This document shows, in pieces, positions 1,978-44,488 of a stretch of DNA of 64,000 bases. Below the pieces are notes generated by a model. That model worked only from the letters and a program-made list of their open reading frames with translations, did not search any database and was not told the DNA's origin. The position numbers were made by a program, and so were the translations under genes. Source of the stretch: Saccharopolyspora endophytica. GTDB lineage: Bacteria; Actinomycetota; Actinomycetes; Mycobacteriales; Pseudonocardiaceae. Positions within the stretch are counted from its first letter, which is position 1. Each line of letters starts with the position of its first letter. The stretch is taken from assembly GCF_018070075.1 (NCBI RefSeq), contig NZ_JAGPXE010000019.1, forward strand, positions 1 to 64,000, read 5' to 3'.

Positions 1978-2124
1978 TTGGAAGCGGAATCCGGTCCTGC
2001 AACATGACTCGCCAACCGACTCGCAGCGACGAGTACGCACCAGGCGGAAATACCACCGCGACACCGAGTTTCCCGAACCTCGCGACGCTTCCGAACTGAC
2101 AAGCCCGTCGAAAGGTTGAGCCCC

Positions 2125-11373: not shown

Positions 11374-11399
11374 GGGTTTTCCTTTCGTTTGCGACGATC

Positions 11400-12383: not shown

Positions 12384-12453
12384 GCGGGGACTCCTCGGGG
12401 GAATGCGGTGGCCACCCGGCCTCGTTGCGTGGATCACCATCGCAGGACTGCGC

Positions 12454-12481
12454 GTTTCGCGCAATAGCGATGGCGCGAAAC
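12454..12481. promoter_or_regulatory. Operator between divergent sugar-acid operons
   Basis: GTTTCGCGC (12454-12462) and GCGCGAAAC (12473-12481) form a perfect 9-bp inverted repeat with a 10-bp spacer. It is 70 bp from one start and 90 bp from the other. The DeoR-family protein encoded at 14789-15565 is the obvious candidate to bind it. Confidence 0.6.
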
Positions 12482-12570
12482 ACGCAATTCCGCTAGCGTG
12501 GCCACCAAGTCGCACGACCGACCCCGGACAAGCCGCAAGCACCGCGCTGAACTACGACGAGGAGCCGGAA

Positions 12571-13773: not shown

Positions 13774-14768
13774 ACAGTGCCTCCACCACACCCGTGATCG
13801 CCGTGACGATGGGCGACGGGGCCGGAATCGGGCCCGAGGTCACCGTCGGGGCGCTCCTCGACGAGGCCACCGCCGGTCGGTGCCGTCCCATCGTGATCGG
13901 CGACGCCGGCCGCTTGCGGAAAGCCGCCCGCATTCTCGGTGTCGACACCGAGGTGGTCGCGGTCGACTCCGTCGACGACGCGGTCTTCACCCCGGGCCGG
14001 ATCAACGTCATCGACCTCGGCCTGCTGCCCGCTGACCTCCCGTGGGGCGCGGTGTCCTCGGTCGCCGGTGACGCCGCCTACCACTACATCCGGGTGGCGA
14101 GCGAGCTGGCGACGAGCGGTGCGGCGCAGGCCATCTGCACCGCACCCCTGAACAAGGAGGCGCTGCACGCCGCCGGGCACGTCTTCCCGGGCCACACCGA
14201 GCTGCTCGCGCACCTCACCGGCACCGGCGAGGTGTCGATGATGCTGGCGACCCCGGCGATGAAGGTCATCCACGTGACCACCCACATCGGGCTGATCGAC
14301 GCCGTCGCCGCGATCGAGCCCGGCATCGTCGAGCGCACCGTGCGCCGCGGTGACCGAACGCTGCGCGACTCGGGCATCGAGTTCCCGCGCATCGGCGTCT
14401 GCGGCATCAACCCGCATGCCGGCGAGAACGGCCTGTTCGGCTACGGCGAGGAGGACGAGAAGATCGTCCCCGCGCTGGAGAAGCTGCGCGCCGACGGCAT
14501 CGACGCCCAGGGCCCGCTGCCCGCCGACACCGCGTTCTTCCTCGCCACGCGTGGCGAGTACGACCTCATCGTCGCGATGTACCACGACCAGGGCCATGGG
14601 CCGGTGAAGGTGCTCGGCATCGAGACCGGCGTGAACATCACCGTCGGCCTGCCCGTCATCCGAACCTCGGTCGACCACGGCACGGCCTTCGACATCGCGG
14701 GTACCGGCAAGGCAAGCAGCGAAAGCATGGTCGAAGCCATCCGCCAGGCCGCGAACCTGTGCGCGTGA
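13770..14768 (+). CDS. pdxA2: PdxA2-type 4-phospho-tetronate dehydrogenase
   Basis: A 332-residue PdxA-family NAD-dependent dehydrogenase. The start motif ITxxMGDGAGIGPE appears as VIAVTMGDGAGIGPEV, and the three metal-binding His regions are present: PGHTELLAHL (about residue 141), VTTHIGLID (170) and MYHDQGHGPVKVLG (271). Next to a DUF1537 kinase, PdxA2 enzymes oxidise 4-phospho-D-threonate or -erythronate, which then loses CO2 to give dihydroxyacetone phosphate; the pairing argues against a role in vitamin B6 synthesis. The GTG start at 13770 overlaps the kinase stop and has GAAAGG 8 bases upstream. Confidence 0.9.
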   Translation: MNSASTTPVIAVTMGDGAGIGPEVTVGALLDEATAGRCRPIVIGDAGRLRKAARILGVDTEVVAVDSVDDAVFTPGRINVIDLGLLPADLPWGAVSSVAGDAAYHYIRVASELATSGAAQAICTAPLNKEALHAAGHVFPGHTELLAHLTGTGEVSMMLATPAMKVIHVTTHIGLIDAVAAIEPGIVERTVRRGDRTLRDSGIEFPRIGVCGINPHAGENGLFGYGEEDEKIVPALEKLRADGIDAQGPLPADTAFFLATRGEYDLIVAMYHDQGHGPVKVLGIETGVNITVGLPVIRTSVDHGTAFDIAGTGKASSESMVEAIRQAANLCA

Positions 14769-14788
14769 GCTGAACGGGGGACGAAGCG

Positions 14789-15565
14789 ATGTCCTACGGT
14801 GCACGGGAGCGCAGGGCCGCGATCCTGCGCTTGGCCGGCTCCTCAGGTTTGACCAGCGTCGACGAACTGTCGAGCACGTTCGGAGTGACGGCTTCGACGA
14901 TCCGGCGAGACCTCGCGCAGCTGCAGGCCGCAGGCAGGCTGGCCCGGACCTACGGCGGCGCGATGCCGCTGGCGCACGAAGCGTCACTGCGGCAGCGCAA
15001 CGGCGAGGCGACCGAAGCCAAGCAGGCCATCGCCCGTTGGGCGGCCGATCAGGTGCAGTCCGGCGAAACCGTTCTGCTCGACTCCGGCAGCACCACCACG
15101 GCCCTCGCCCGCGAGCTGTCGCACCGCAGCGACCTGGTGGTCGTCACCACGGCGATCACGGTGCTTCACGAGCTCGCCCACGCAGATCTGCACGTCGAAT
15201 GCCTGGGCGGGGCGTTGCGGCAGCTCAGCCAGGGGTTCGTCGGTCCGCTGACCGAGGCCGCCCTGGAACGCCGGACGTTCGACCGCGCGTTCCTGGGCGC
15301 CGACGGCGTCACCGCCGAGCACGGCATCTGCGAGGCGGATCTGGAGCAGACCCGCCTCAAGGAACTCATGGCGCAGCGAGCCGACCACGTCTACGTCCTG
15401 GTGCACGCCGACAAGCTCGGCCAGCGGCCCTTCCGCGCGCACACCCCGTTGAGCCCGCAGTGGACCCTCGTCACCGACGACTCGGTCAGCCCCGGGACCT
15501 CAGCCCACTTCCACGCCCAGGGCCTCAACGTGGTCGTCGCCTCAATCAGCTCGCCTTCGGGGTGA
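14789..15565 (+). CDS. DeoR/GlpR-family transcriptional repressor
   Basis: A 258-residue regulator: an N-terminal winged helix (RRAAILRLAGSS, then FGVTASTIRRDLAQLQAAGRL, residues about 8-55) followed by the DeoR sensor domain with LLDSGSTTTALAREL and FLGADGVTAEHGICEADLEQ. DeoR proteins sense phosphorylated sugars, which suits a locus with a sugar-acid kinase. It is the third gene of the plus-strand operon, 20 bp after pdxA2. It probably represses both divergent operons through the repeat at 12454-12481. Its 3' end overlaps the P450 gene on the other strand by 20 bp. Confidence 0.88.
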   Translation: MSYGARERRAAILRLAGSSGLTSVDELSSTFGVTASTIRRDLAQLQAAGRLARTYGGAMPLAHEASLRQRNGEATEAKQAIARWAADQVQSGETVLLDSGSTTTALARELSHRSDLVVVTTAITVLHELAHADLHVECLGGALRQLSQGFVGPLTEAALERRTFDRAFLGADGVTAEHGICEADLEQTRLKELMAQRADHVYVLVHADKLGQRPFRAHTPLSPQWTLVTDDSVSPGTSAHFHAQGLNVVVASISSPSG

Positions 15566-16751
15566 GGACGACCGGGAGGGTGCGCGGGGCGTGGACGTGG
15601 ACGCTGCGGCGGTAGGTGAGCTCGGACGGGTCGGCGACGACGCGCAGGTTCGGGTGGCGGCGGAACAGGGCCTCCAGGGCGACTTCGCCCTCCAAGCGCA
15701 CCAGGGCCGCGCCGAGGCAGCGGTGGATGCCGTGGCCGAAGGCGACGTGGCCGCCGGTGTCGCGGTCGGGGTCCAGGACGTCCGGATCCGGGTAGCGGTC
15801 CGGGTCGCGGTTGGCCGCGCCGGTGGACAGCGTCACCGACTCGCCCCTGGCGATCTTCACCCCGCCGATCTCCACGTCCTCGGTGGCGAAGCGCAACGAG
15901 GCGTTGAGCGCCGGTGACAGCCAGCGCAGCAGCTCCTCGACCAGCGAGGGCACCTTCGCGGGGTCGGCGAGGCGGGCGCGGGCGGAGTCGTCGTCGACCA
16001 GCGCCCGGACGCTGTTGGTGATGAACACGGCGGTCGTCTCGTGGCCCGCCATCAGCAGCAGCATGGCCATCGCGACGATCTCCAGGTCGGAGAGCCGGTC
16101 GCCCTCGTCGGAGGCGGAGATCAGCGCGGACAGCAGGGCGTCGTCGGGCGCGGCACGCTTGGCGGCGACCAGACCTTCCAGGTAGGTGGCCATCTGCGCG
16201 GACGCTCGGGCGAGCTCGTCGTCCGGGCACTCGTCGATGAGCACTGTGGACAGTCGGGCGAACTCCTCGCGGTCGATCTCCGGGACGCCCAGGAGTTCGC
16301 TGATCACCACCATCGGCAGCACGATCGCGAAGCGGGCCACCAGGTCGACCGGTTCGTCCTGCGGCAGCTCCGCCAGCAGTTCCTCGGCGAGGGATTCCAC
16401 GCGCGGGCGCAGCGTGGCGATGCGGCGGGCGGTGAACGCCTGGGTGACCAGGCTGCGCAACCGGGTGTGCTCCGGCGGGTCGAGCGAGGTCAGCATGTGC
16501 GACATCGGGGCGGGCAGCCCGGGCGGGGCGGAGGCGCGCTCCTCGGCGGGCAGGCTGGAGCGCCAGTCCTTGGCCAGGCGTTCGTCGGTGAGCCCGGCCT
16601 TCACCTCGTCGTAGCGGGTGACCAGCCAGCTGCGCCCGCCCTCGAAGTCGACCTCCTGGACGGGGCAGGTCCGGCGCGCTTCGGCGAAGGCCGCGTGCGG
16701 GTCCTGCCAGTACTGCTCGGTGAAGGAATCCTTCTGCGTCGCACCGGTCAT
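15546..16751 (-). CDS. Cytochrome P450
   Basis: A 401-residue soluble bacterial P450. Key motifs: I-helix AGHETT (about residue 237), the ExxR glutamate in LVEELLRWLSPAL, and the haem-ligand loop FGHGIHRCLG (about residues 335-345) with the proximal Cys. The size and sequence fit the actinobacterial CYP105/107-like tailoring enzymes. ATG 16751 has GGAG upstream; ATG 16763 in frame is the alternative. It follows the cyclase gene by 29 bp in the same direction, so the two are probably cotranscribed, and it likely oxidises the cyclised terpenoid. No ferredoxin or reductase gene is close. Confidence 0.92.
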   Translation of the reverse strand: MTGATQKDSFTEQYWQDPHAAFAEARRTCPVQEVDFEGGRSWLVTRYDEVKAGLTDERLAKDWRSSLPAEERASAPPGLPAPMSHMLTSLDPPEHTRLRSLVTQAFTARRIATLRPRVESLAEELLAELPQDEPVDLVARFAIVLPMVVISELLGVPEIDREEFARLSTVLIDECPDDELARASAQMATYLEGLVAAKRAAPDDALLSALISASDEGDRLSDLEIVAMAMLLLMAGHETTAVFITNSVRALVDDDSARARLADPAKVPSLVEELLRWLSPALNASLRFATEDVEIGGVKIARGESVTLSTGAANRDPDRYPDPDVLDPDRDTGGHVAFGHGIHRCLGAALVRLEGEVALEALFRRHPNLRVVADPSELTYRRSVHVHAPRTLPVVLTPKAS

Positions 16752-16780
16752 CGGGTTCTCCATTCCGTGAAGTGCCGCGG

Positions 16781-18445
16781 TCAGCGCAGGGCGTCGCGGT
16801 AGCGGCCGAGCGCGCGCAGCGCCATGCCCTGCGCCAGCGCCGGGTTGCTGTAGCGGCTGACGTGCCGGACGTACTCGTTGACGCTCTCCGAAGGCCATCC
16901 GCCGCCGGGTTCGCGCTGGTCGAGCAGCCAGTTCAGCCCGTCGCGCACCGACTCCGGGGAGGCGCCGGCGGCGAGCAGCCCCGAGATCGCCCAGCCGGTC
17001 TCCTCGACGGTGGCGGGCGCGCCGTGCCCGTCGCCCCACGAGCCGTCGGCGTGGCGGGCCTGCTCAAGCCACGCCTTCGCGCGCCGAGCCGGTTCCTCCT
17101 CGGCGCGACCCGCCTTGGAGAAGGTTTCGAGCACGGCGGCGGTGGCCATCGTGTGGTGGCGGTACCAGACCGATTCGAACGAGCCGTCCGGCAGCTGGGC
17201 CTGGGCGAGCCAGCTCAGCGCGCGGCGAACCCTGCGGTCGTCGGCCGGGATTCCGGAGTCCAGCAGCGCGTCGACGGCCTGCACGGTGGTCATCGGGCAC
17301 GGCCCGCTGTTGGCGACCTTGGTGTTGCGCACGCACAGCCCCCACGAGCCGCGCGAGTCCTGCAGCCGGGTCAGCCAGTCCACACCCAGCTCGATCGACT
17401 TCGCCTGCGCGTCACCGGGCATCCGGCACAGCACGGACAGGATCTCGCTGGTCTCCAGCGTCGACGGCCAGCCCGCGGTCCCGGCCCAGCCCCAGTAGCC
17501 GGGCGGGCAGCCGAAGGCCAGGAACGGCCGGTGCTGCTGCAACCGCACGAACAGCTCGGTGGACGCCGCCAGCCTCGGGTCGTCGGCGTAGCCGGCTTCG
17601 GCGAGACCGCGCGCGGCGTACATGGTCCACGCCGCGTCGAGCGGGCCGGTCTGCCACCACCCGTCGGGGTCCATGGTCGTGCGGAACCACTTCACCGCGG
17701 CGTCGACGAGGTCCGGCGCCAGCTCCGCGCGGGCCAGCCCGGTGCACACCAGTCCGGTGACCCAGGCGTTCTCGCACCAGGCACCGGTCGAGCCCTCGTG
17801 CTCGTGGACCTGCCGGATCGCCTTGAGCGCGTTGGCCTCTCCCAGCTTGGCCAGCAGGCGGTGGAAGCGGTTGAGCGGCTTGTGCTTGGCCTGGGCCAGG
17901 CCCAGCGCGAACGCCATCGGGATCCGCAGGTCGAACAGCTTGCGGTACAGGCTCGGGACGAGCGCCACTTCCAGCGGGAACCGGCGCATCTCCTCGTGCG
18001 ACAGCCAGCCGACGAAGCCGTAGTACTGGCGGCACCACGAGACGACCTCGGGGTGCGGAATCGCGTCCAGGCCACCGAAGTCGGCCATCCAGCGCTGACC
18101 GGATCTCACGGCCTCGGCGCTGCCCTCCGGGTCCACCAGGTGCAGCACCGCCGAGCTCACCGCCGTCGGCCCGGCTTCGCTGTCCAGCCCCGGCACCATC
18201 GCCCAGCCGCCGTCGGCGTTCTGGGTGCGCCGCAGCCATCCGGCACCGGCCTCGATCAGGTCGGCGCTGTCCCGCGGGTCGGCGTGGTGCAGCGCGGACA
18301 GCGCGCCGACCGTGCCCAGCGTGGAGGTCAGGTTGTCCTCGCAGTAGTCGAACACGCCGTCGGCGCGCTGGGCGAGGAACAGCGCCTCCGCGCCCTCGCT
18401 GATCGCCTGGTCGAGGACGTCGGGCTCGGGCTGCACCGTCGTCAT
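16781..18445 (-). CDS. Squalene-cyclase-fold (class II terpene cyclase-like) enzyme with unusual catalytic motif
   Basis: A 554-residue all-alpha (alpha/alpha barrel) protein built of QW-type repeats such as QNADGGWAMVPG, DSRGSWGLCV, LPDGSFESVW, HADGSWGDGH and REPGGGWPSE. This is the fold of squalene-hopene and oxidosqualene cyclases, but it is about 80 residues shorter. The segment GWPSTLETSEIL (about residues 322-333) aligns with oxidosqualene cyclase GWPISDCTAEGL and with the DVDDTA motif of hopene cyclases; the protonating Asp is Leu here and the following Glu could replace it. Start ATG 18445 has GGAGGA upstream. It begins a two-gene operon with the P450 and is divergent from the prenyl-chain genes. 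The role is probably cyclisation of a prenyl or epoxyprenyl chain. Confidence 0.8.
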   Translation of the reverse strand: MTTVQPEPDVLDQAISEGAEALFLAQRADGVFDYCEDNLTSTLGTVGALSALHHADPRDSADLIEAGAGWLRRTQNADGGWAMVPGLDSEAGPTAVSSAVLHLVDPEGSAEAVRSGQRWMADFGGLDAIPHPEVVSWCRQYYGFVGWLSHEEMRRFPLEVALVPSLYRKLFDLRIPMAFALGLAQAKHKPLNRFHRLLAKLGEANALKAIRQVHEHEGSTGAWCENAWVTGLVCTGLARAELAPDLVDAAVKWFRTTMDPDGWWQTGPLDAAWTMYAARGLAEAGYADDPRLAASTELFVRLQQHRPFLAFGCPPGYWGWAGTAGWPSTLETSEILSVLCRMPGDAQAKSIELGVDWLTRLQDSRGSWGLCVRNTKVANSGPCPMTTVQAVDALLDSGIPADDRRVRRALSWLAQAQLPDGSFESVWYRHHTMATAAVLETFSKAGRAEEEPARRAKAWLEQARHADGSWGDGHGAPATVEETGWAISGLLAAGASPESVRDGLNWLLDQREPGGGWPSESVNEYVRHVSRYSNPALAQGMALRALGRYRDALR

Positions 18446-18948
18446 GCGGATTCCTCCAGTCCGACCGCGCACGAACCGGGCACGGCCTCCTCCTCAAGGA
18501 TGTCGCCGAATGCGCGGCTGCGGATCGCTTGATGAGATTCGTTGCCCGCTGGACCGTTTCGGCTGGCCGGACTCTACGCGAGCAGATCGCGTTTCGACCA
18601 TATCCGCAGACCTGCCACGACGAATTTCCACGAGATTCCGGCAATTTCCCGGATAGCCGGTAAATTCTCGCCCCGCCCACGGTGAACCGTTCTCGACCCC
18701 GCGGACGTGATCTTCGGATTTTCCCGGTATTCCCGAGAACGGGTTTCTGATAAGCCTTTTCTCAGCGACGATTCGTTGACAAGCGCGAGGACGAGGAATG
18801 AAGATCGTCCTCGTCAGGCCATCGGCGAGAGAAGGACGCACTCGGACCCGCCGGTCCGTTCCGCCTGATTCCGGTCTTCCAACTTCCGCGTCGAGCCCGC
18901 GCGCTCGCCGGAACAATGCGTGCGCACGTCAGGAACGGAGATCAGCCT
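18446..18948. other. 503-bp divergent promoter region of the terpenoid cluster, with degenerate palindromes
   Basis: This gap separates the cyclase and aminotransferase operons. At 18622-18641 it holds a unit resembling the CACT-core repeat (GAATTTCCACGAGATTCCGG) with a weaker unit centred about 24 bp later. A TTGACA hexamer lies at 18775-18780 and could be the -35 of the rightward operon. A short frame from ATG 18798 has ordinary upstream sequence and no recognisable product, so I do not call it a gene. Confidence 0.4.
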
Positions 18949-19977
18949 GTGCCCACCATTCGGCACCAGTTGTCCCTCAACGAGAACTTCGCGGCACCCC
19001 TGCCCGGCGTGCGCGAGGCCATCGTGCACAGCTCCGACCGGGCCAACCTGACGCTCGACGCGATGTCGGCGGGGCTGACGCGCACCATCGCCGAGCACGT
19101 CGGGCTGGACTCCACCGAGGTGTTCGTCGGCCCGGGTTCGGGGGCGCTGCTCCAGCAGTTCCTCACGACCTTCGCCGGTGGCGGCGAGATCGTCCACGCC
19201 TGGCCCTCGTTCGAGATGTACCCGCTGCTGGTGCGCTGCGCAGGCGCGACGCCGGTCGCGGTGCCGCTGCGCGATGACGCCCACGACCTGGCCGCGATGG
19301 CCGACGCCGTCACCGACCGCACCAAGATCGTGCTGCTGTGCAACCCGAACAACCCGACGGGCACGGTGTTCGGGGACGACGAGGTGCGCGCGTTCCTCGA
19401 CCGGATCCCCTCGGGCGTGCGGGTTCTCATCGACGAGGCCTACGCGGACTTCGCCGATCGGTCCGCGATCGCCCGCGGCATCGATCTGGCCGCCGAGGAC
19501 CCCCGGGTGTCGGTGGTGCGCACGTTCTCCAAGTCCCACGGGCTGCTGGGGCTGCGGGTCGGCTACCTCGTCGCCAACGAGGCGGTGGTCAGCGCGCTCA
19601 CGCCGGGCTCGTACTTCTTCCGGGTCAGCACCGTGGCGCAGGACGCCGCGCTGGCCGCGCTGCGGGCCGAGGACGTCATGCGCGAGCAGTGCGCGGAGGT
19701 CGCCGCGCAGCGCGACCGGGTGCACACCGGGTTCACCGGGCTGGGCCTGGACGTCCCGCGAAGCCACGGCAACTTCCACTGGCTGCGCTTCGGCGAGGCC
19801 AACGACGAGTTCGTGCGGTTCTGCGACGAGTTCGGCGTGCAGGTGCGCACTCTCGCCGACGGCGCCGGCGTCCGGGTGACCGTCGGCACCGCCGAGGCCA
19901 ACGATCTGGTGCTGGACCTGACCCGGCGCTTCCTCGCCGGTGACAGGGCCGGCGCCCCGCAAACGGGTAGCGCGTGA
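18949..19977 (+). CDS. PLP-dependent aminotransferase, histidinol-phosphate-aminotransferase-like
   Basis: A 342-residue fold-type I aminotransferase of the HisC/CobC group. It opens with IRHQLSLNENFAAPLPG, has the CNPNNPTGTVF motif and DEAYADFAD, and holds the PLP-binding Lys near residue 194 in RTFSKSHGLLGLRVGY. Start GTG 18949 has GGAG 8 bases upstream; the in-frame ATG 33 bases earlier has no ribosome site. It leads an operon with a polyprenyl synthase, UbiA and an FAD monooxygenase, so it is unlikely to be the housekeeping histidine enzyme. It may supply or remove an amino group on the aromatic or amino-acid unit that is prenylated. Confidence 0.85.
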   Translation: MPTIRHQLSLNENFAAPLPGVREAIVHSSDRANLTLDAMSAGLTRTIAEHVGLDSTEVFVGPGSGALLQQFLTTFAGGGEIVHAWPSFEMYPLLVRCAGATPVAVPLRDDAHDLAAMADAVTDRTKIVLLCNPNNPTGTVFGDDEVRAFLDRIPSGVRVLIDEAYADFADRSAIARGIDLAAEDPRVSVVRTFSKSHGLLGLRVGYLVANEAVVSALTPGSYFFRVSTVAQDAALAALRAEDVMREQCAEVAAQRDRVHTGFTGLGLDVPRSHGNFHWLRFGEANDEFVRFCDEFGVQVRTLADGAGVRVTVGTAEANDLVLDLTRRFLAGDRAGAPQTGSA

Positions 19978-19978
19978 G

Positions 19979-20962
19979 ATGACCGACGACACCGGAATCG
20001 GCTCGCCGGAATGGGTGGAGCTGCTCAGCCGCGAGATGGGCAAGCGGTGGTCGGCGGTCGCCGATCGCACCGAGCAGATGGCCGGGCACGCGCTGCTGGC
20101 GCCGGGCAAGATGCTGCGGCCCGTGCTGCTGCTCACCTCCGCCGAGGCCACGGGCGGTGACAGCGCCCAGCTGCTCCCGGCCGCGCTGGCCGTGGAGTAC
20201 CTGCACGTGGCCACCCTGGTGCACGACGACATCATCGACGACGACCGGCTGCGCCGTGGCCGTCCCACCGTGCACGCCGAGTACGGCATGGCCGACGCGC
20301 TGGTCACCGGTGACTTCCTGATCCTGAACATGGTCACCTCCCTCTCGGAGTGCACGGCCGTACCGCCCGCGGCGGTGCTCGAAGCGGCGCGGGTGCTGGC
20401 CGGGGCGGGTTCCGACGTGTGCCGCGGCCAGGTCCGGGAGGCCGAGATGGCCGGTGACCTGAGCTGTCCGGTGAGCGACTACCTGGAGATGGCGGCGCTG
20501 AAGACGGGCGCGCTGTTCCGGGGCGCCTGCCGGGCCGGGGCGGTGCTGGCCGGAGCCACCGGCGAGCACGCCGACGCCGTCACGCGCTACGCCGAGCACC
20601 TGGGCGTGGGGTTCCAGATCTTCGACGATCTCCTTCCCTACCTGGGTGATTCGACCGGGAAGCCGGCCACCAGCGATGTCGCCAACCTGCGTCCCACCCA
20701 TCCGGTGCTCGTCGGCCACGAGGTCGCCGACGACGAGGGCAGGGAGCGGTTCGCCGAGGCGCTGTCGGGCCGCTTGCCCGCCGAGGAGTCCCACGCGCTG
20801 ATGCGCGAGCTGCTGATCGCCACCGGGGCGTTGGAGCGGAGCAGGCGGCGCGCGGCCGAGGAGATCGCGGCGGCGCGGGACAGCCTGGACGGTCTGCCGG
20901 GTGCGGCGGCGGTCGAGCAGATGCGCGGGATCGCCGAGCTGGCCATCGACCGGAGCCGGTAG
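19979..20962 (+). CDS. Polyprenyl diphosphate synthase (trans-IPPS)
   Basis: A 327-residue trans-prenyltransferase that extends allylic diphosphates with IPP. The first aspartate-rich motif HDDIIDDDRLRRGRP (about residues 81-95) is intact, as is the chain-binding ALKTGALFRGAC. The second motif, normally DDxxD, reads FDDLLPYLGD near residue 214, so its last Asp is Pro. Product length cannot be read off with confidence. ATG 19979 begins one base after the stop of the aminotransferase, implying translational coupling. It should make the prenyl donor for the adjacent UbiA enzyme or the substrate of the cyclase. Confidence 0.9.
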   Translation: MTDDTGIGSPEWVELLSREMGKRWSAVADRTEQMAGHALLAPGKMLRPVLLLTSAEATGGDSAQLLPAALAVEYLHVATLVHDDIIDDDRLRRGRPTVHAEYGMADALVTGDFLILNMVTSLSECTAVPPAAVLEAARVLAGAGSDVCRGQVREAEMAGDLSCPVSDYLEMAALKTGALFRGACRAGAVLAGATGEHADAVTRYAEHLGVGFQIFDDLLPYLGDSTGKPATSDVANLRPTHPVLVGHEVADDEGRERFAEALSGRLPAEESHALMRELLIATGALERSRRRAAEEIAAARDSLDGLPGAAAVEQMRGIAELAIDRSR

Positions 20963-20965
20963 GCC

Positions 20966-21943
20966 ATGCGCGACCGCTGGGCGCGCACGCGCCGAACCCT
21001 CTGGGCGCACGTGCAGACCTTCCGCCCGTACACGCTGTGCTACCCGGTGCTGGTGGGCGTGGCGGGCGCGGGCGTGACCGGTGAGGCCGGGCTCGCGGAG
21101 TTCGTCATCGCCGGGTTCGGCACGGCGTTCGGCTGGCTCGCCGCGCACTACCTCGGCGACTACTTCGACCGCGAGCTGGACCGGGTCGCCAAGCCGCAGC
21201 GGCCGATCCCGTCGGGCCGGCTGGCACCGGGCACCGCTCTCGCCTGCGGGATCGGTCTCGCCGTCGCCGCGACCGCCCTGCTGACCTGGGCGAACTTCCG
21301 GGCGCTGCCGCTGGTCGCGGTCGCGCTGTCGGGCGTGATCGCCTACAGCCGGTTCTGCAAGGCTCGGGGGCTGTCGGGGAACCTGGTGCGCGGTCTGATC
21401 ACGGCCACGGCGTTCCTCATCGGCGCGATGGTGGCCGCTCCCCTGCCCGGGTGGACCGCGCTCGGGCTGTCGCTGGTCTTCCTGCTGCACGACACGGCGT
21501 CGAACCTGGTCGGCACGATGCGCGACGTCGACGGCGACCGCGCGGCCGGGTACCGGTCGGTGCCGGTCCAACGCGGCCAGCGCTACGCCGCCCGGCTGTC
21601 GGTGCTGCTCTACGTCTCGGCGATCGGCATCGCCGCGCTGGCTCTCGCGCTGCCGCACCGGACCGGGTACCCGGTGCTGCTGGCGGTGGCGGGCTGCGCC
21701 GGGCTGATCGCGGTGCTGCCGCTGCTGCGGCTCGCGCCGACGCTGAGCCAGGCCCGCGCTCTGCGGGCCCACGAGGTGCTGGTCGCCGAACGCCTGGTGC
21801 TCGCCGCAGCGGTCCTCGCCGTCACCGTTCCCGTTGTCCCCGTGGTCGCGCTGCTGCTGCCGGTGCTGGTGTTCAGCGTCTGGACGCAGGCGGCGATGCG
21901 CTCGCGCCACGAGATCGCCGAGAAGGAGGCCCTGCCGACATGA
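20966..21943 (+). CDS. UbiA-family membrane prenyltransferase
   Basis: A 325-residue integral membrane protein with about nine hydrophobic segments. The two Mg-diphosphate motifs are present: HYLGDYFDRELDRVAKPQRP (about residues 61-80) and MRDVDGDRAAGYRS (about 182-195). UbiA enzymes move a prenyl chain onto an aromatic ring or glycerol, and some act as terpene cyclases. It starts 3 bp after the polyprenyl synthase and overlaps the FAD monooxygenase by ATGA. Together they suggest prenylation followed by epoxidation. The acceptor is not encoded by any obvious aromatic pathway in the window. Confidence 0.9.
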   Translation: MRDRWARTRRTLWAHVQTFRPYTLCYPVLVGVAGAGVTGEAGLAEFVIAGFGTAFGWLAAHYLGDYFDRELDRVAKPQRPIPSGRLAPGTALACGIGLAVAATALLTWANFRALPLVAVALSGVIAYSRFCKARGLSGNLVRGLITATAFLIGAMVAAPLPGWTALGLSLVFLLHDTASNLVGTMRDVDGDRAAGYRSVPVQRGQRYAARLSVLLYVSAIGIAALALALPHRTGYPVLLAVAGCAGLIAVLPLLRLAPTLSQARALRAHEVLVAERLVLAAAVLAVTVPVVPVVALLLPVLVFSVWTQAAMRSRHEIAEKEALPT

Positions 21944-23190
21944 GTTCCCCTGCCGCGGAGCGCGCGGACGTCGTGGTGTGCGGGGCGGGTGTGGGCGGCC
22001 TGGCCGCCGCGCACGCGCTCGGATCGCTGGGCCTGCGGGTCGTGGTCGCCGAGAAGCGCCCGACGGTGCCCAGGATCCCGAAGGGCGAGGTCCTGCAGCC
22101 CGGCGCGCTGCGGATCCTGGATGACTGGGGCATCAGCGAGGTCCTGGAAGACCGCGGCGCGGTGCGCCTCTCGTCGCTGGTCGCCGTGGAGGCCAAGGGC
22201 CGGATGGCGCTGGACTACGCGCAGCTGCCGGAGGGTTCGAACTGGCTGCTGTCGGCCGACCACGAGTCGATCCTGATGGCTCTGGCCGACCACCTGCCCG
22301 ACACCGTCGACCTCCGCCGGGCAACCCCGGTGCAGGACGTGGTCCGCGACGACGCCGGGCGCATCGCGGGAGTGGCGCTGAAGGGCTCGGGCGAGGTCTG
22401 GGCACCGCTGGTGGTGGCGGCCGACGGGGTGTCCTCGCGGTTGCGCCGGGCCGCGGGCATCGAGGCCGACCGCCAGGACTACCCGCACCGGCTCGTCGCG
22501 CTGGAGATCCCCGACGTCCCCGACGCCGCCCGCGAGGTCGTCGCCTACACCACCTCGCGCGGGCTGCGGATGCGCTACCCGCTGCCGGGCGACCGGGTCC
22601 GGCTCTACGTCCAGATCGAACCGGACGAGTTCCGGGGCGTGGGCCACGACGCGGTGCTGCGCTGGACCGACGAGCTGATCGCCGAACTGCCCGACCTGGC
22701 GGACTTCGGGGACCAGCTGAGGACGTGCGTGGCGGACCGGCAGACGCTCCCGGTGTCGCACTTCGAGGCCTCCGGGCTGTCGGCGCCGGGCATCGCGCTG
22801 GTCGGCGAATCGGCGCACTCGGTGCACCCGATGGCCGCGCAGGGCATGAACAGCGCCATCTACGACGCGCGCGCCCTGAGCGCCTGCCTCGCTGCGGAGT
22901 CCGATGTGGACACCGCGTTGCGCGAGTACGAGTCCCGACGCCTGCCCGAGATCAACCAGATCGGCACCATCAGCCACAACGCGGCGCGGATGCTCACCGA
23001 CCTGTCGTGGGTGGGTCGCACGATCGGACGTCGGGCGCTGCGCAACACCGGCGCCAACCAGCGGCTCAGCTTCACCGTCATGCACAACCTGTCCGGTCTG
23101 GGCCTGCACCCGCTGTCGCCGTTCGATCGGCTCTGCCAGCTCGGACTGCTGCCCGACCCGCGGTCGCGGCGCCGGCCCCGATGGGCATGA
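21940..23190 (+). CDS. FAD-dependent monooxygenase (UbiH/PHBH class), possible prenyl epoxidase
   Basis: A 416-residue group A flavoprotein monooxygenase. It has the Rossmann GAGVGGLAAAHALG near the N-terminus, the central VVAADGVSSRLRR (DG motif) and the C-terminal GESAHSVHPMAAQGMNSAIYDA (GD-type motif, about residue 288). ATG 21940 overlaps the UbiA stop. Given its neighbours (prenyl synthase, UbiA, cyclase-fold enzyme) it may epoxidise the terminal double bond of a prenyl chain before cyclisation, as in known meroterpenoid pathways; ring hydroxylation is the alternative. It ends 20 bp from the convergent methyltransferase gene. Confidence 0.88.
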   Translation: MSSPAAERADVVVCGAGVGGLAAAHALGSLGLRVVVAEKRPTVPRIPKGEVLQPGALRILDDWGISEVLEDRGAVRLSSLVAVEAKGRMALDYAQLPEGSNWLLSADHESILMALADHLPDTVDLRRATPVQDVVRDDAGRIAGVALKGSGEVWAPLVVAADGVSSRLRRAAGIEADRQDYPHRLVALEIPDVPDAAREVVAYTTSRGLRMRYPLPGDRVRLYVQIEPDEFRGVGHDAVLRWTDELIAELPDLADFGDQLRTCVADRQTLPVSHFEASGLSAPGIALVGESAHSVHPMAAQGMNSAIYDARALSACLAAESDVDTALREYESRRLPEINQIGTISHNAARMLTDLSWVGRTIGRRALRNTGANQRLSFTVMHNLSGLGLHPLSPFDRLCQLGLLPDPRSRRRPRWA

Positions 23191-23203
23191 GGACCGGCGC
23201 CGC

Positions 23204-23221
23204 GCAGGCCTCAGGGCCTGC
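23204..23221. terminator. Short stem-loop across the methyltransferase stop codon
   Basis: GCAGGCC-TCAG-GGCCTGC forms a perfect 7-bp stem with a tetraloop between convergent genes. It contains the minus-strand stop (23211-23213). A weak bidirectional terminator is plausible. Confidence 0.4.
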
Positions 23222-24224
23222 CGCACTCCACGACGACGAGGCCACCCGGCCAGGTCCGGGTCTCGATCACCTTCAGGCCCGCCTCGCCGGCCAGCACCTC
23301 GAAGTCGGCGACCGTGCGCTCCTGACCTCCCAGCAGCACCAGCGACTGCAGGTCGAAGGAGGTGTTCTGCTGGGCGTGGGCGTCGCCCGCGAGGACCTCC
23401 ACGATGACGACGCGACCGTCACCGGCGGCCTCGGCGCAGCGCCGCAGGATCGCGGCCGCGTTCTCGTCGTTCCAGTCCGTCAGCACGCGGGAGACGAGGT
23501 AGACGTCCCGGCCCTCCGGCAGCGCGTCGAAGAAGCTGCCCGGGACGAACCTGGCCCGCTCCGCGACCCCGGCCTCGGCCAGGAACACGTCGGCCTCCGC
23601 GGCGACCGCGGGCAGGTCGAGGACCTCGCCGTCCAGGTGCGGGTTGGCGCGGACGATCTCGGACAGCAGCGCACCCTGCCCGCCGCCGACGTCGATGACG
23701 CTGCGCACCGGCGCCCAGTCGAACTCCGCGGCCAGCACCGGCCCGGTCTGCCACGCGTAGGCGACCATGACGTCGCCGAAGAAGCGCCGCAGGTCGTCGT
23801 TGCGCTGGTAATCGTCCCAGAACGGGGTGCCGTGAACCGTTCCGTAGGCCGAGTTGCCGGTGCGGACGGAGTGCAGCATCCCGCTGAAGGCCATGTCCAT
23901 CCGGGCGCCCGGGCCGTCCAGGACCAGCCAGTCCTTGAGCCACGTGCCGTCCTCGGCCAGCAGCCGGCGCGACAGCGGCGTCAGCCCGTAGGAGCCCTCG
24001 CCGGTCTCGGCGAACAGGCCGATGCTCACGAGGTGGCGCAGCAGCCGTTCGAGGGATTCGCGGTGCGCGCCGGATTCGGTCGCGAGCGGGCCGATCTCGG
24101 TCGTGCCGCCGGCGATCAGCTCCGGCAGCCGCAGCGTCACCGCGACGCGGATGGCGAAAGGTGTTGCCAGGTCGATGAGCTTGGCGAGTTCGAGACTCGT
24201 TTCGCGCGATTCCTCGGAATCCAT
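23211..24224 (-). CDS. O-methyltransferase-fold protein (AdoMet class I, COMT/DnrK-like) without the catalytic His
   Basis: A 337-residue protein of the acetylserotonin/caffeate O-methyltransferase family: an N-terminal winged-helix dimerisation domain (LIDLATPFAIRVAVTLRLPELI, GLTPLSRRLL) followed by a Rossmann AdoMet domain with VIDVGGGQGALLSEI (about residue 176). The catalytic His, usually in LHDWDDE, is replaced: the sequence reads VLTDWNDENAAAIL. In this family such changes occur in members that have left O-methylation, for example the hydroxylase RdmB. Start ATG 24224. It is divergent from the TauD gene and lies inside the terpenoid cluster, so it is probably a tailoring enzyme with uncertain reaction. 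Confidence 0.85.
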   Translation of the reverse strand: MDSEESRETSLELAKLIDLATPFAIRVAVTLRLPELIAGGTTEIGPLATESGAHRESLERLLRHLVSIGLFAETGEGSYGLTPLSRRLLAEDGTWLKDWLVLDGPGARMDMAFSGMLHSVRTGNSAYGTVHGTPFWDDYQRNDDLRRFFGDVMVAYAWQTGPVLAAEFDWAPVRSVIDVGGGQGALLSEIVRANPHLDGEVLDLPAVAAEADVFLAEAGVAERARFVPGSFFDALPEGRDVYLVSRVLTDWNDENAAAILRRCAEAAGDGRVVIVEVLAGDAHAQQNTSFDLQSLVLLGGQERTVADFEVLAGEAGLKVIETRTWPGGLVVVECGRP

Positions 24225-24408
24225 GGATCTCTGCTTTCTTCCGGATTGAAGACCCGTCCGCCTCCGTGCTTTTCATCCTTACCGACCGCCGAACACCGCG
24301 TCAACGACAGCGGCGAGAACACGTCCGCACGCCGGGGAAACCGGCACGCGTTGGCGCGAGCCTGCACGAAAACCCTTGAGCACGAACGGAAGTTGAGGTG
24401 ACCGTCCC

Positions 24409-25245
24409 ATGACGAGCATCGACGTACGTCCCGCCTCCGGCGCGCTGGGCGCCGAGGTGCGCGGACTTGACCTGGAGTCGCTGACCGAGGACTCCTTCGC
24501 GCAGCTGCACGCGCTGCTGGTGGAGAACCTCGTGCTGTTCTTCCCCGAGGCCGAACAGCTCTCCCCCGAGGCGCACAAGGCGTTCGGCCGGTTCCTCGGC
24601 GAGCTGGAGGTGCACCCGTTCCTGCCCAAGCTGGACGGTCACGACGAGATCGTCGTCCTCGACTCCGATCAGGGCGCGAAGGCCGACGTCTGGCACACCG
24701 ACGTGACCTTCCAGGCGAGCCCGCCGATCGCCTCCATCCTGCAGATCGTGCAGTGCCCGCCGCGCGGCGGCGACACGATGTGGAGCAACCAGCACCTCGC
24801 CTACGAGAACCTCTCGGCACCGCTGCGGGACTTCCTCGAAGGGCTCACGGCCGTGCACGCCTTCACCCACCCCAACGGCACCGTCTTCGAGGCCGAGCAC
24901 CCGGTGGTCCGCGCTCACCCGGTCACCGGCAGGCGCTCCCTGTACGTCAACCGCATGTTCACCCTGCGCATCCCGCAGCTGCGCCGCGCCGAGAGCGACG
25001 CGCTGCTGGGCCACCTGTTCAGCTCCTCGGAACGCCCGGAAAACGTCTGCCGGTTCAGCTGGAAGCCCGGCGCGATCGCCATGTGGGACAACAGGGCGAC
25101 GCAGCACTACGCGGTCAACGACTACACCGAGCGCCGCGTCGGCCGCCGGGTCACCATCCTCGGCGACGTGCCGAAGGGCGAAGAACCGCGCTGGCCACAC
25201 CTGACCGACGCGACCACGGCGGCGGACTTCCGCAAGGACTCCTGA
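24409..25245 (+). CDS. TauD/TfdA-family Fe(II)/2-oxoglutarate dioxygenase
   Basis: A 278-residue non-haem iron oxygenase. The iron facial triad can be read as His and Asp in VWHTDVTF (about residues 95-97) and the distal His in RATQHYAVNDY (about 232); an Arg for 2-oxoglutarate follows in RRVGRRVTILG. Start ATG 24409 has GAGGTGA 7 bases upstream. Its closest family-wide features (FFPEAEQLSPEAHKAFGRF, CPPRGGDTMWSNQ) match taurine-dioxygenase-like proteins, but in this cluster it more likely hydroxylates or desaturates the terpenoid. It is followed by a strong terminator that closes the cluster. Confidence 0.9.
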   Translation: MTSIDVRPASGALGAEVRGLDLESLTEDSFAQLHALLVENLVLFFPEAEQLSPEAHKAFGRFLGELEVHPFLPKLDGHDEIVVLDSDQGAKADVWHTDVTFQASPPIASILQIVQCPPRGGDTMWSNQHLAYENLSAPLRDFLEGLTAVHAFTHPNGTVFEAEHPVVRAHPVTGRRSLYVNRMFTLRIPQLRRAESDALLGHLFSSSERPENVCRFSWKPGAIAMWDNRATQHYAVNDYTERRVGRRVTILGDVPKGEEPRWPHLTDATTAADFRKDS

Positions 25246-25251
25246 CCCGCG

Positions 25252-25280
25252 CGCTCCCCGGGCACCGCGCCCGGGGAGCG
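25252..25280 (+). terminator. Stem-loop terminator after the TauD gene
   Basis: CGCTCCCCGGG (25252-25262) pairs perfectly with CCCGGGGAGCG (25270-25280) around a 7-base loop, 7 bp after the stop codon. It separates the biosynthetic cluster from the next gene. Confidence 0.88.
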
Positions 25281-25334: not shown

Positions 25335-25381
25335 CGTCGCTTCTTCGTCTGCCTTAGTGCGCAATGTGGGGATTGGGCTTT

Positions 25382-28168
25382 ATGAGCAGAACTCTCGCTT
25401 CGGTGAAGGACGACGGTCCGCCGTCGTTACCGCTGTTCCACGGGGTCGTGCAGGTCCTGGAACTCATCCGCGCGCTCTACGGGCGACGGCACGAGCGGAC
25501 CAGCGACAGCGGCGGCGGTCTGCCGATGCTGTGCCTGGTCAGGCCGCGGGAGCTGGAGGGCCTGCTGCCGGCGATCGGCGAACGGCTCAAGAGCGCCGAA
25601 CCGCACCGGGTTCCGCACGCCTACATCCGCCTGGCGCCCGCCGCGGCCGATCCCAGGGACGCCGACCACACCGCGCAGACACCGCTGCCACCGCCCGAGG
25701 TCGACACCGTCCGGGGCCTGCTCGCCGACATCGCCGAGCAGCTCAACGGCCCGCTCAACGCCCAAGCCGGTCGGATGCGCTTCCCCCGGTTCAGCCTGGC
25801 GCTGTGGTTGATGCGGCAGGACCTGTCCGGAACCGAGATCCCGAGGCGGGAAGCCGAGCTGCGCAAGCGGCTGTGGCGGCGCGACCCCGCGCAGCGGATC
25901 GCGGAGCTGATCAACACCAACACCGCCGACGCCCCGGACCGGACGGTCTGGTCGGTACTCAAGGTGCTCGCCCTGGTGCCGTGGCTGTGGTTCCAGCTCA
26001 AGATGCACTGGCGGCTGCCGCTGATCGGCGGCTACCGGTGGTTCCGGCGGCAGAGCTACCTGGCACCCGAAGTACCCGGGAACTTCCTCGGGTTCGCCGA
26101 GCGGCTCACCGAGAACGAGTGGAACAAGGAGGTTCCCGAGCAGGTCGCGAAGTTCCTGATCAACACGCTGCTGGAGGACCTGCGCCGTTCCTACCGCCGC
26201 TTCCCCTGGCGGTTGCGCGGCAAGTGGCGCACGACCTACACGACGGTGCTGCTGGACAACGTCACCCGCTCCAACGGCGGCTACGCGCTGCTCAAGCTGG
26301 TCAACGACATCCGCAACGAGACCGGCCTGGTCGATCCGCTGCTGCTGATCACCACGAGCTCGCTGGTCCCGCCGCACGCCGTCGAGCCGACGGTGGACAA
26401 CGTCCAGGACGTCGTGTCGCAAGCGCACGAGGCCGACGAGCAGGGTTACCGCGCGTGGCGGCACAAGCTCGACGAGGCGCGGCGGGCGCGCACCGACATG
26501 ACCTGGTACCTGCCGGTCGAGATTCCCCCGGCGGCGACCGGGGATTCCCGCAAGAGCGAGATCCGGCGACATCTGGCCGCAGCCGACAAGTACACGCTGC
26601 CTCCCCCGCCGTGGTGGTCGCGGCGAACCCTGCCGGTCGCACTGCTGCTGGGGCTGGCGGGCGTGGGGGTCTACGCGTACTCCGCGTTCAGCACCGCGCA
26701 CTGCGGCATCCTGTTCCAGCCGCCCTGGTACTGGCTCGGCACCGCACCCGGGCTGACCAGCATGGAGAACGAGGCGGGCGAGTGCGTCGGCGTCACCGAC
26801 GGCACCTTCCTCGCGGAGTTCATCGACGACGCACCACCCGGCCAGACCCAGCAGGCCGCGCAGGAGGCCGATCCGATCCTGACCGGCCTGCGCGCCATCG
26901 GTGACACGATCGCGCAGCAGAACCAGTTGGCGCTGGACAAGGCCGCGGAAACGGGCCGACCGGTCCTCACGCTGGTCTACCTGGGCGATCTGTCCCCGGG
27001 AGCGGGCGCGTTCAACCTCTCGGCCCAGCACGAGACGCTCGCCGGCATCGCGGTGGCCCAGTACGACCAGAACTTCGAGCCCAACACGCCGCTGGCCCGG
27101 GTGCTCATCGCCAACGGCGGCAAGGACATGGGTCACGGCGTGGAGGTCGTCGACCGGCAGATCGCCGAGCTCGCCAAGCGGGATCCCGGCATCATCGGCG
27201 TGATCGGCCTCAACTACAGCCGCGAGGAGACCTTCGAGGTCATCGAAAGGCTCGGTGCCGCAGGGCTTCCGACGGTCGCGTCGACGCTGTCCTACGACCA
27301 CATCCCCGACCGCTCACCGCTGTACTTCCAGGTCTCGCCGCAGAACGTCACGCAGGCCCGGCGAGCCGTCGAGTTCGCGGGCGAGCAGGGCCGCACCGCC
27401 GGGGTCAAGATCTACAGCGACGGCGTCGACCCCTACAGCCGCAACCTCGGGACCGACGTCGAGAACGAGTTCCGCCGCGTCCACCCCGGGGCGACGGTCC
27501 AGTGGCTCAACGAGGACCCGCACACCGCCGGCCGGGAGACCTGCAAGGCGTCGCAGGACGAGCTGGTGTACTACGCCGGGCGCGGCACCGAGTTCCGGGA
27601 GTTCCTGGACGGCGTGGGCAGCGGCTGCCCGACCGACGTCCCGCCCATGATCCTGGGCAGCGATGACGTGGCCAGCCACGTCGCCAACCGGGCGGCGCGC
27701 TTCGCCAAGATCGGCATCCCGTACTACTACCAGTCGTTCGCGGTGGCCCCGAGCACGCCGGACCCGAACGACTCCGGGCGCACCGTGGTCGGCCCGGCGC
27801 TGGACTTCTACTGCACGCTCAACATCATCATCGCCGGGGACGATCCGGCGATGCCTCCCGACGAATGCCCGCCCAGGGAGGGGAACCTGTCCCTGGACGG
27901 GCACGCCGCGCTCGCCCACGACGCCGCGAGCGTCCTGCTCAGGGCCGCCAACCAGCTCGACCGAGGTGGCCCGATCCCGATCACCGCCGGCACCGTGTGG
28001 CGTCAGATCAACGCCAACCAGCACCAGACCGACGAAGACCTGCCGTCGAAGTACGGGCTGGTGACGGGCCAGATCGACTTCGGCAGCGACACCAACAACC
28101 GCGTCCCGAAGGACAAGACGGTCTGGACCCTGCACGTGGACCAAGCAGGTCAGGTCTCGGTGCCGTAG
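25382..28168 (+). CDS. Large single-pass membrane protein: cytoplasmic domain plus extracellular periplasmic-binding-protein domain
   Basis: A 928-residue protein. Residues 1 to about 410 look cytoplasmic and contain TVLLDNVTRSNGGYALLKL followed by PLLLITTSSLVPP, which recall a Walker-B-like and sensor-like strand, although I find no Walker A loop. One membrane segment (TLPVALLLGLAGVGVYAY, about 416-434) follows. The remaining about 490 residues resemble type 1 periplasmic binding proteins of the LivJ/ANF-receptor kind (VIGLNYSREETFEVIERL, GLPTVASTLSYDHIP, YFQVSPQNVTQARRAVEFA). ATG 25382 is chosen because GGGGA lies 9 bases upstream; ATG 25364 has none. No permease or ATPase is adjacent, so it may be a receptor rather than a transporter part. 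Confidence 0.72.
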   Translation: MSRTLASVKDDGPPSLPLFHGVVQVLELIRALYGRRHERTSDSGGGLPMLCLVRPRELEGLLPAIGERLKSAEPHRVPHAYIRLAPAAADPRDADHTAQTPLPPPEVDTVRGLLADIAEQLNGPLNAQAGRMRFPRFSLALWLMRQDLSGTEIPRREAELRKRLWRRDPAQRIAELINTNTADAPDRTVWSVLKVLALVPWLWFQLKMHWRLPLIGGYRWFRRQSYLAPEVPGNFLGFAERLTENEWNKEVPEQVAKFLINTLLEDLRRSYRRFPWRLRGKWRTTYTTVLLDNVTRSNGGYALLKLVNDIRNETGLVDPLLLITTSSLVPPHAVEPTVDNVQDVVSQAHEADEQGYRAWRHKLDEARRARTDMTWYLPVEIPPAATGDSRKSEIRRHLAAADKYTLPPPPWWSRRTLPVALLLGLAGVGVYAYSAFSTAHCGILFQPPWYWLGTAPGLTSMENEAGECVGVTDGTFLAEFIDDAPPGQTQQAAQEADPILTGLRAIGDTIAQQNQLALDKAAETGRPVLTLVYLGDLSPGAGAFNLSAQHETLAGIAVAQYDQNFEPNTPLARVLIANGGKDMGHGVEVVDRQIAELAKRDPGIIGVIGLNYSREETFEVIERLGAAGLPTVASTLSYDHIPDRSPLYFQVSPQNVTQARRAVEFAGEQGRTAGVKIYSDGVDPYSRNLGTDVENEFRRVHPGATVQWLNEDPHTAGRETCKASQDELVYYAGRGTEFREFLDGVGSGCPTDVPPMILGSDDVASHVANRAARFAKIGIPYYYQSFAVAPSTPDPNDSGRTVVGPALDFYCTLNIIIAGDDPAMPPDECPPREGNLSLDGHAALAHDAASVLLRAANQLDRGGPIPITAGTVWRQINANQHQTDEDLPSKYGLVTGQIDFGSDTNNRVPKDKTVWTLHVDQAGQVSVP

Positions 28169-43864: not shown

Positions 43865-44488
43865 ATGGCCAACGATGAGAAGCAGCCGATGTTCGACCAC
43901 CGGCTTCGCGAGAGGTTCTACGACCAGCGGGTTCTGGTGCTCGACGGTCCGCTCGAAGACGACAACGGGACGGTGCTGATCACGCAGATGCTGTCCCTCG
44001 CCCACTCCGATCCCGGCAAGGACATCGCGCTGTGGATCCACTCCCCCGGCGGCTCGGTGCCGGCGATGCTCGCGATCCGCGACGTGATGCGGCTCGTGCC
44101 GTGCGACGTGTCCACGCTCGCGCTCGGACTCGCGTGCAGCGCGGGCCAGTTCCTGCTGTCGGCGGGCACTCCCGGCAAGCGCTTCGCTCTGCCGCACGCG
44201 CGAATCCTGATGCACCAGGGTTCGGCCGGGATCAGCGGTTCGGCCGTCGAGGTGGAGGTGCAGGCCGATGACCTGCGCTACACGCGGGACACGGTGCTCG
44301 GCCTGATCGCCGAGGACACCGGGCAGCCCGTCGAGCGGGTCTTCGCCGACTCGCTGCACGACCGCTGGTTCAGCAGCGAGCAGGCCCGCGAGTACGGGTT
44401 CGTCGACCACATCGTCGACGGTCTGGGTCAGGTGATGCCGATGCGGACGCCCATGGGCCTCAGCGCGGAGACGGGAGTTCGGGCATGA
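43865..44488 (+). CDS. clpP: ClpP protease subunit, ClpP1-like, catalytic triad intact
   Basis: A 207-residue Clp protease proteolytic subunit. The triad is complete: Ser in [14 protein letters not shown], His in [13 protein letters not shown] and Asp in [20 protein letters not shown]. The body is close to ClpP1 of mycobacteria. It forms 14-mer chambers that are fed by ClpX or ClpC. It overlaps the second clpP by 4 bp, and the two probably form a mixed complex like the accessory ClpP3/ClpP4 of Streptomyces. A PopR-like box precedes it. As the main clpP1P2 pair normally sits with tig and clpX, this is likely the accessory, inducible pair. Confidence 0.92.

Follow-up and report, generated by a model that had tools for sequence, protein, structure and literature searches.

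A candidate gene cluster for an amino-acid-bearing diterpenoid of the phenalinolactone and brasilicardin kind in Saccharopolyspora endophytica

What do eight neighbouring genes that combine terpenoid and amino-acid chemistry make in Saccharopolyspora endophytica, and do they belong together? The genes occupy positions 15546 to 25245 of a 64,000-nucleotide stretch of DNA (the window: assembly GCF_018070075.1, contig NZ_JAGPXE010000019.1, positions 1 to 64,000 of the forward strand). They encode an aminotransferase (AT), a polyprenyl synthase (PPS), a UbiA-family prenyltransferase, a flavin adenine dinucleotide (FAD) monooxygenase (FMO), a cyclase with the squalene-hopene cyclase (SHC) fold, a cytochrome P450, a methyltransferase (OMT) and a TauD-family oxygenase. 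We find that they form one biosynthetic cluster, and we lean towards its product being an amino-acid-bearing diterpenoid of the phenalinolactone and brasilicardin kind; we infer the acceptor, the chain length, the order of the steps, the ring system and the product itself. An orphan set of eight genes is now placed within a family of actinomycete clusters.

Eight genes, one cluster

Genes were called on the open reading frames (ORFs) of the window from codon-position GC content and from Pfam and NCBIfam matches, and these calls bore out the positions and families that the original prediction had given for the eight ORFs. A scan of genome contigs with the window cyclase as query yielded 14 loci, of which 12 are close (cyclase identity 79-87%). 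The two that were left out, L017 and L018, are partial matches at 29-30% in metagenome-assembled genomes of Verrucomicrobiales/Akkermansiaceae. The close loci represent six Saccharopolyspora species, three Umezawaea and one each of Saccharothrix, Actinokineospora and Actinosynnema. The original prediction had raised the possibility that the same eight genes recur in other actinomycetes, and they do: all eight are present in 12/12 close loci from these five genera, in two gene orders. The six Saccharopolyspora loci read TauD, OMT, FMO, UbiA, PPS, AT, SHC, P450; the other six read SHC, P450, TauD, OMT, FMO, UbiA, PPS, with the AT gene beside the SHC gene, joined to PPS, or both. The flanking genes of the window that were compared had matches in just two of the 12 loci (L006 and L007). 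The presence of the complete set in every close locus takes the grouping beyond chance, and by this comparison of sequences the eight genes are one biosynthetic cluster.

The cyclase is present in 11 of the 22 genomes of the window's genus (E <= 1e-30, its own genome included), and five of these 11 coincide with loci among the 12 close ones; a plasmid collection searched with the cyclase gave no match. Further members were sought on both sides of the cluster and rejected. The DeoR/PdxA/aldolase genes at 10612-15565 accompany it only in L007 of the 12 close loci, and the gene at 25364 (934 aa) only in L006.

Strands and spacing fit the four short transcription units that had been described. The minus-strand unit holds the class II cyclase gene (16781-18445, minus strand; PF13243/PF13249; STLE for DXDD; an alternative GTG start is possible at 18472) and then, as its second gene, that of a CYP107-like P450 (15546-16763, minus strand; PF00067; heme motif FGHGIHRCLG). 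A divergent intergenic region of 470 bp (18446-18915, from the gene coordinates), in which a scan for sigma-70-type promoters found no match, separates it from the other main unit, on the plus strand. This second unit encodes a Pat/HisC-like, pyridoxal phosphate-dependent AT (18916-19977; PF00155), a trans-polyprenyl diphosphate synthase (19979-20962; PF00348; motifs DDIID and FDDLLPYLGD), the UbiA protein (20966-21943; PF01040; Asp motifs GDYFDRELD and RDVDGD) and a UbiH-type FMO that is a putative prenyl epoxidase (21940-23190; motifs GAGVGGL, DG and GESAH). The FMO domain matches, PF01494 and the squalene epoxidase family PF08491, were obtained on the longer ORF 21451-23190. The junctions within this unit are as tight as had been noted, the AT stop and the PPS start being one base apart and the UbiA and FMO genes overlapping by 4 bases. 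The gene for the O-methyltransferase-fold protein (23211-24224, minus strand; Dimerisation PF08100 and Methyltransf_2 PF00891; S-adenosylmethionine motif present) is convergent to this unit, and that for the Fe(II)/alpha-ketoglutarate oxygenase of the TauD family (24409-25245, plus strand; PF02668; HxD and H motifs) stands separately. Beyond it lies a GC-rich hairpin with a 12-bp stem and a 5-nt loop (25252-25280, plus strand), which had been put forward as a closing terminator. The hairpin is real (segment 25246-25290, -37.3 kcal/mol, z -5.0); since it has no T-run and is absent from the list of the terminator scan, its role as a terminator is plausible only.

In an alignment of 13 cluster copies, the motifs checked in PPS, UbiA, FMO, AT, TauD and P450 are kept with minor substitutions. 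The P450 is 76-93% identical across the 12 close loci. In the PDB it matches the vitamin D3 hydroxylase Vdh best (372 bits); for UbiA the best match is digeranylgeranylglyceryl phosphate synthase (62 bits), and the matches of the cyclase include SHC (2sqc) and MstE.

Clusters of known product and the wider family

One point of contact with a known product is the TauD protein, which is 57.8% identical to PlaO1 of phenalinolactone biosynthesis and matches its structure (7qtd) with 349 bits, the next PDB match scoring 203. We took the phenalinolactone cluster (pla) of Streptomyces sp. Tu6071 to be the contig that carries loci L107-L109, where TauD, FMO, SHC and UbiA genes stand in one row. Over 263 residues the L107 protein shares 98.9% identity with PlaO1; among ten ORFs scanned on the contig are those for NDP-hexose 2,3-dehydratase, a nucleotidyltransferase, a sugar dehydratase, DXS, GcpE, a radical-SAM protein and a fumarylacetoacetate (FAA) hydrolase. 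The near-identity to PlaO1 and these sugar and precursor genes suggest that the contig carries the phenalinolactone cluster or one nearly identical to it. Four proteins of the window thus have homologues in a cluster whose product is very probably known: besides TauD, these are the FMO (47%), the SHC-fold cyclase (38%) and UbiA (209 bits). The pla cyclase also lacks DXDD and carries its acid one residue further on (GWPNFLDS), as in the window.

The two gene sets differ in other respects. The pla contig has an FAA hydrolase gene beside UbiA, and neither the AT nor the OMT of the window finds a match on it. The window, for its part, has these two genes together with a dedicated P450. The deoxysugar, DXS, GcpE and radical-SAM genes of the pla contig are absent among the window ORFs scanned, which likewise contain no FAA hydrolase. 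The window cluster, in which the FAA hydrolase and sugar genes are absent, is not a phenalinolactone cluster. The FAA hydrolase gene of L107 (14495-15397, minus strand) lies directly upstream of UbiA and has matches in 4/4 pla-type loci; its product may act on the prenyl acceptor as a keto-enol enzyme.

A second comparison is with brasilicardin A (bra0-bra12, Nocardia terpenica IFM 0406, BGC0000632). According to published accounts the compound is a tricyclic diterpene with an amino-acid side chain attached directly to it, bra1-6 form the core, and the bra0 dioxygenase acts with bra11 in methoxylation (PMC7837296, PMC12185567). By number and role the eight window genes can be matched to bra0-6 plus bra11, in a comparison of gene layout in which the individual functions of bra1-6 are inferred. 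Brasilicardin differs in its 3-hydroxybenzoate and glycosyl-transfer genes (bra7-bra10), which have no counterpart in the set of eight or in the flanking ORFs scanned, and in its rhamnose attachment genes and its regulator of the SARP family, of which none is found among the window ORFs scanned. One genome of a Nocardia-like genus, G781, holds a TauD gene divergent from the series AT-PPS-UbiA-SHC-FMO-P450-acyltransferase-(311 aa)-OMT (L069-L070), a layout that resembles the published bra0 | bra1-11 plan. G781 has no match to the chorismatase family PF21168, so its cluster is probably not that of brasilicardin itself; in three genomes searched for chorismatase the one match (in G770) fell in a region without matches to the eight genes. 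We regard the window cluster as a likely candidate for membership of the brasilicardin type, by analogy with the published layout and with G781.

The composition that had been called unfamiliar is therefore familiar in large part: the UbiA, FMO, SHC and TauD core stands beside a 98.9% copy of PlaO1, and brasilicardin is described as a six-gene core with a dioxygenase and a second methoxylation gene. Among the papers listed by a literature search, most subscription papers being beyond its reach, none is described as dealing with this gene set. A 2024 paper, to judge by its title, concerns a related class of cyclase, and part of the system described here may already be in print. Small, easily expressed clusters of this kind may offer a route to relatives of the immunosuppressant brasilicardin and of the phenalinolactones, an antibiotic family.

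The family extends well beyond the close loci. The larger genome searches scored few top candidates per genome (three in the class and order samples, nine for the cyclase in the Nocardia-like genus, six for TauD in the Streptomyces-like genus), so their counts are lower bounds. Relatives of the cyclase were found in at least 4/394 genomes of a class sample (E <= 1e-25) and at least 27/397 of an order sample (E <= 1e-40), the window genome being counted in both. The 150 genomes of the Nocardia-like genus gave at least 18 SHC-family matches (E <= 1e-15), three of them strong (G770, G781 and G892), and at least 4 TauD matches (E <= 1e-60), two of them strong. In a Streptomyces-like genus TauD relatives occur in at least 16/392 genomes (E <= 1e-80), and FMO, the SHC-fold cyclase and UbiA stood beside TauD in 10/10 neighbourhoods examined of the 16, L029 included.

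Genes that might supply the prenyl acceptor were compared in 33 loci with long flanks, the window excluded (tblastn, E <= 1e-12), with an FAA hydrolase query from L107, itself of the pla type, and a query for 4-hydroxyphenylpyruvate dioxygenase (HPPD) likewise from one HPPD-type locus. The 24 loci of clade A, to which the window belongs, all carry AT and TauD, and 20 of them OMT (it is missing from L029, L101, L102 and L103); none of these AT-type loci has an FAA hydrolase match. The four pla-type loci show the reverse, with an FAA hydrolase and TauD in 4/4 and AT in 0/4. The four HPPD-type loci have an HPPD-like gene in 4/4, a different UbiA, no AT and no TauD. PPS had no match in L103 and L105. 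In a cyclase tree of 55 sequences (L056, with a stop within the frame, was removed) the full-eight, pla and HPPD sets each lie on one side of a branch with respect to the other labelled rows, 34 sequences being unlabelled. Our reading of these sequences is that a constant core for prenylation, epoxidation and cyclisation may be fed by differing acceptor enzymes. The AT and FAA hydrolase families both act on alpha-keto acids, a hint that a keto-acid acceptor is common to the AT and pla types, while the HPPD type would use homogentisate. If this rule holds, the class of the non-terpene partner can be predicted from a single neighbouring gene (AT, FAA hydrolase or HPPD).

The HPPD-type clusters (L023, L024, L025 and L031), which have the same FMO and SHC core, come from one Streptomyces-like genome and three that belong to the genus of the window; L024 additionally carries two methyltransferase and two P450 genes. 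Their gene content suggests that they make a homogentisate-derived meroterpenoid.

The cyclase acid and the history of the cluster

The window cyclase has both SQHop domains, N and C. In an alignment with AacSHC, STLE occupies the place of DXDD, and SHC-like relatives (L060-L066, seven weaker matches from the Nocardia-like genus that retain DXDD) read PDTDD there. Asp376 of SHC and Asp455 of oxidosqualene cyclase (OSC) are the catalytic acids of those enzymes; at the acid site of the window cyclase there is neither the DXDD of SHC nor the single catalytic Asp of OSC. One residue on is E340 (numbered from the GTG; E331 from the ATG). Among 53 cyclases counted, with the SHC of the window's own genome (L076) and the long-branched L059 excluded, the residue aligned with the final DXDD Asp is Glu in 45/45 clade-A sequences (the window among them), Asp in 4/4 of the pla type, and Glu in three and Asp in one of the four HPPD-type sequences, which makes it acidic in 53/53. 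The sequence with a stop in its frame, L056, reads TDD, and Cys392 is invariant in the cyclases compared. On this alignment we propose Glu340 as the putative general acid that opens the epoxide, shifted from the DXDD position; a testable acid is thereby named for cyclases without DXDD. A true hopanoid cyclase was considered for the window enzyme and rejected, as DXDD is absent and a separate SHC-family protein (458 bits) is encoded elsewhere in the genome (C23:550968-551915).

The cyclase appears to have a history of its own. For 20 taxa we compared its tree with that of five concatenated proteins (FMO, UbiA, PPS, OMT and TauD). The five-protein tree unites Saccharopolyspora with G770 (100/97) and then with L099 (96/93), apart from the Saccharothrix/Umezawaea group; in the cyclase tree it is with that group that Saccharopolyspora clusters (100/99). 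The two data sets reject each other's whole topology (approximately unbiased test, p 1.5e-7 and 7e-38), several other nodes being weak in both trees. Gene layout agrees: the cyclase lies between UbiA and FMO in G770, L099, L100 and L026-L028, whereas the window has overlapping UbiA and FMO genes and a separate unit that holds the cyclase together with the P450. The conflicting trees and agreeing layout indicate that a cyclase-P450 cassette was probably swapped between lineages; for the P450 this draws on its pairing with the cyclase and on its identity (76-81%) to the second group, of the Saccharothrix/Umezawaea type.

In most loci of that group the AT and PPS genes are fused. Of the six Saccharothrix/Umezawaea/Actinokineospora/Actinosynnema loci, five (L011, L012, L013, L015 and L016) have them as one open frame with no intervening stop, the sixth, L014, having no AT adjoining PPS; a second AT lies beside the cyclase in four of the six (L011, L012, L013 and L015). 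A 33-sequence tree divides the ATs into a fused and a separate group (support 94/100 and 100/99). Fusion argues for transamination and prenyl supply being parts of one pathway, and it suggests an early role for AT.

Together these observations allow a bolder proposal, which we hold tentatively: in a seven-gene pathway to an amino-acid diterpenoid, a cyclase-P450 cassette from one lineage may have taken the place of the original cyclase, and the resulting hybrid would build a ring system absent from brasilicardin and phenalinolactone by means of the shifted Glu acid, while some relatives would channel amino donor and prenyl chain through the fused AT-PPS. The cassette exchange, the fusion and the shifted acid are the parts worth following.

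Candidate pathway, competing readings and neighbouring genes

The scheme that we lean towards keeps the earlier logic of prenylation, epoxidation and closure by a cyclase fold, which is supported. PPS would make a C20, perhaps longer, prenyl diphosphate, and UbiA would attach the prenyl chain to an alpha-keto acid, most probably a C3 unit, at its enol carbon. FMO would then epoxidise the distal double bond, and the cyclase, with E340 opening the epoxide, would close a tricycle. AT could convert the keto acid to the amino acid, supply the keto-acid acceptor, or both; the P450 would hydroxylate the ring system. TauD is predicted to hydroxylate the side chain and OMT to cap that hydroxyl as a methoxy group, as is reported for bra0 and bra11.

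Several points weigh against parts of this scheme. The brasilicardin comparison is one of layout. One locus, L071+L072, has PPS, UbiA, SHC and FMO and none of the three acceptor genes, and the outlying cyclase L059, outside the 53 counted, has Asn at the acid position. Ahead of its first Asp motif PPS reads LHVATLVHDD, much like the pla-type L104 and L106; L108 differs there (IHNFSLIHDD), so chain length is not transferable from the phenalinolactone-like contig. AT most resembles an aromatic aminotransferase, a likeness that suits an aryl-pyruvate acceptor no less than a C3 one. The catalytic His of Methyltransf_2 proteins lies in an HDW/HNW motif; OMT has Thr at this place (SRVLTDW) in 13/13 aligned copies, and likewise in eight further relatives (seven loci and L030). 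This replacement makes O-methylation by OMT uncertain, and the enzyme may have a chemistry other than that of an ordinary O-methyltransferase. Its closest O-methyltransferase in the PDB is 3i53, among the matches listed (the best 60 of 95). The keto-acid C-methyltransferase MppJ was considered as an analogue; no entry named MppJ stands among those best 60 of 95 matches, and the analogy is neither supported nor excluded.

The aromatic bent of AT leads to the strongest alternative, which we judge possible and clearly less likely than the keto-acid diterpenoid: AT would make indole-3-pyruvate, phenylpyruvate or 4-hydroxyphenylpyruvate, UbiA would prenylate it, and FAD-dependent epoxidation and SHC-fold cyclisation would follow, much as in zigralone with another cyclase. 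The best PDB match of AT is a putative phenylalanine aminotransferase (4r2n, 225 bits), and the HPPD-type sister clusters, 4/4, point to a homogentisate-like acceptor for the same FMO/SHC core. In the zig cluster of Micromonospora zingiberis the proposal is that a prenylated indole pyruvate is built by an aminotransferase, a polyprenyl synthase and UbiA, a likeness to the window in the three enzymes that would build a prenylated keto acid; deletion of the aminotransferase gene zigA still allowed production, which its authors credit to host enzymes (PMC13307353). Zigralone differs, however, in using a Pyr4-like membrane cyclase, a P450 epoxidase and a ring expansion dependent on thiamine diphosphate where the window has an SHC-fold cyclase and an FAD monooxygenase, and neither a Pyr4-like cyclase nor a two-subunit thiamine diphosphate enzyme is found among the eight window ORFs, all of which are assigned to other families. 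At E 1e-12 the window UbiA matches none of the four HPPD-type loci; with the four of the pla type it scores 182-219 bits. The window TauD is PlaO1-like.

It is improbable that the product is instead a phenolic meroterpenoid whose acceptor comes from primary metabolism and whose terpene ketone is aminated by AT after cyclisation. UbiA enzymes commonly accept phenols, and late action of AT is possible; yet the set of eight lacks any phenolic-acceptor gene, the fusion of AT to the prenyl synthase in five loci suggests an early role, and AT tracks the UbiA/TauD type. Chance neighbourhood, in which AT, OMT or TauD would be primary-metabolism genes beside a small terpene cluster, is hardly credible: the HisC-like and TauD families do also serve primary metabolism, but the same eight genes recur in 12/12 close loci with mostly different flanks, AT and TauD, whose possible standing as unrelated neighbours had been raised at the outset, are both present in 24/24 clade-A loci, and further aminotransferases of the AT family are encoded elsewhere in the genome (identity <= 39%).

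Some features of the window and its P450 deserve mention beside the cluster. To our knowledge the natural substrate of Vdh is unknown, and a tricyclic terpenoid like the cluster product is a candidate for it. Next to the P450 gene, the region 10612-15565 encodes a PdxA-like protein, an HpaI-type aldolase, an aldo/keto reductase and a DeoR regulator, and resembles a sugar-acid catabolic set. On the other side, the 934-aa protein encoded at 25364-28168 (plus strand) is well supported by coding statistics and matches no family in Pfam or NCBIfam; its gene adjoins the cluster also in L006. The gene at 2116-4494 (plus strand) encodes a molybdenum subunit like that of xanthine dehydrogenase whose order is seemingly permuted, residues 86-193 matching model positions 463-570 and residues 227-291 matching positions 2-65 of a related model. 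Finally, two adjacent Clp protease genes (43865-45075, plus strand) lie directly 3' of the gene for an AMP-binding enzyme.

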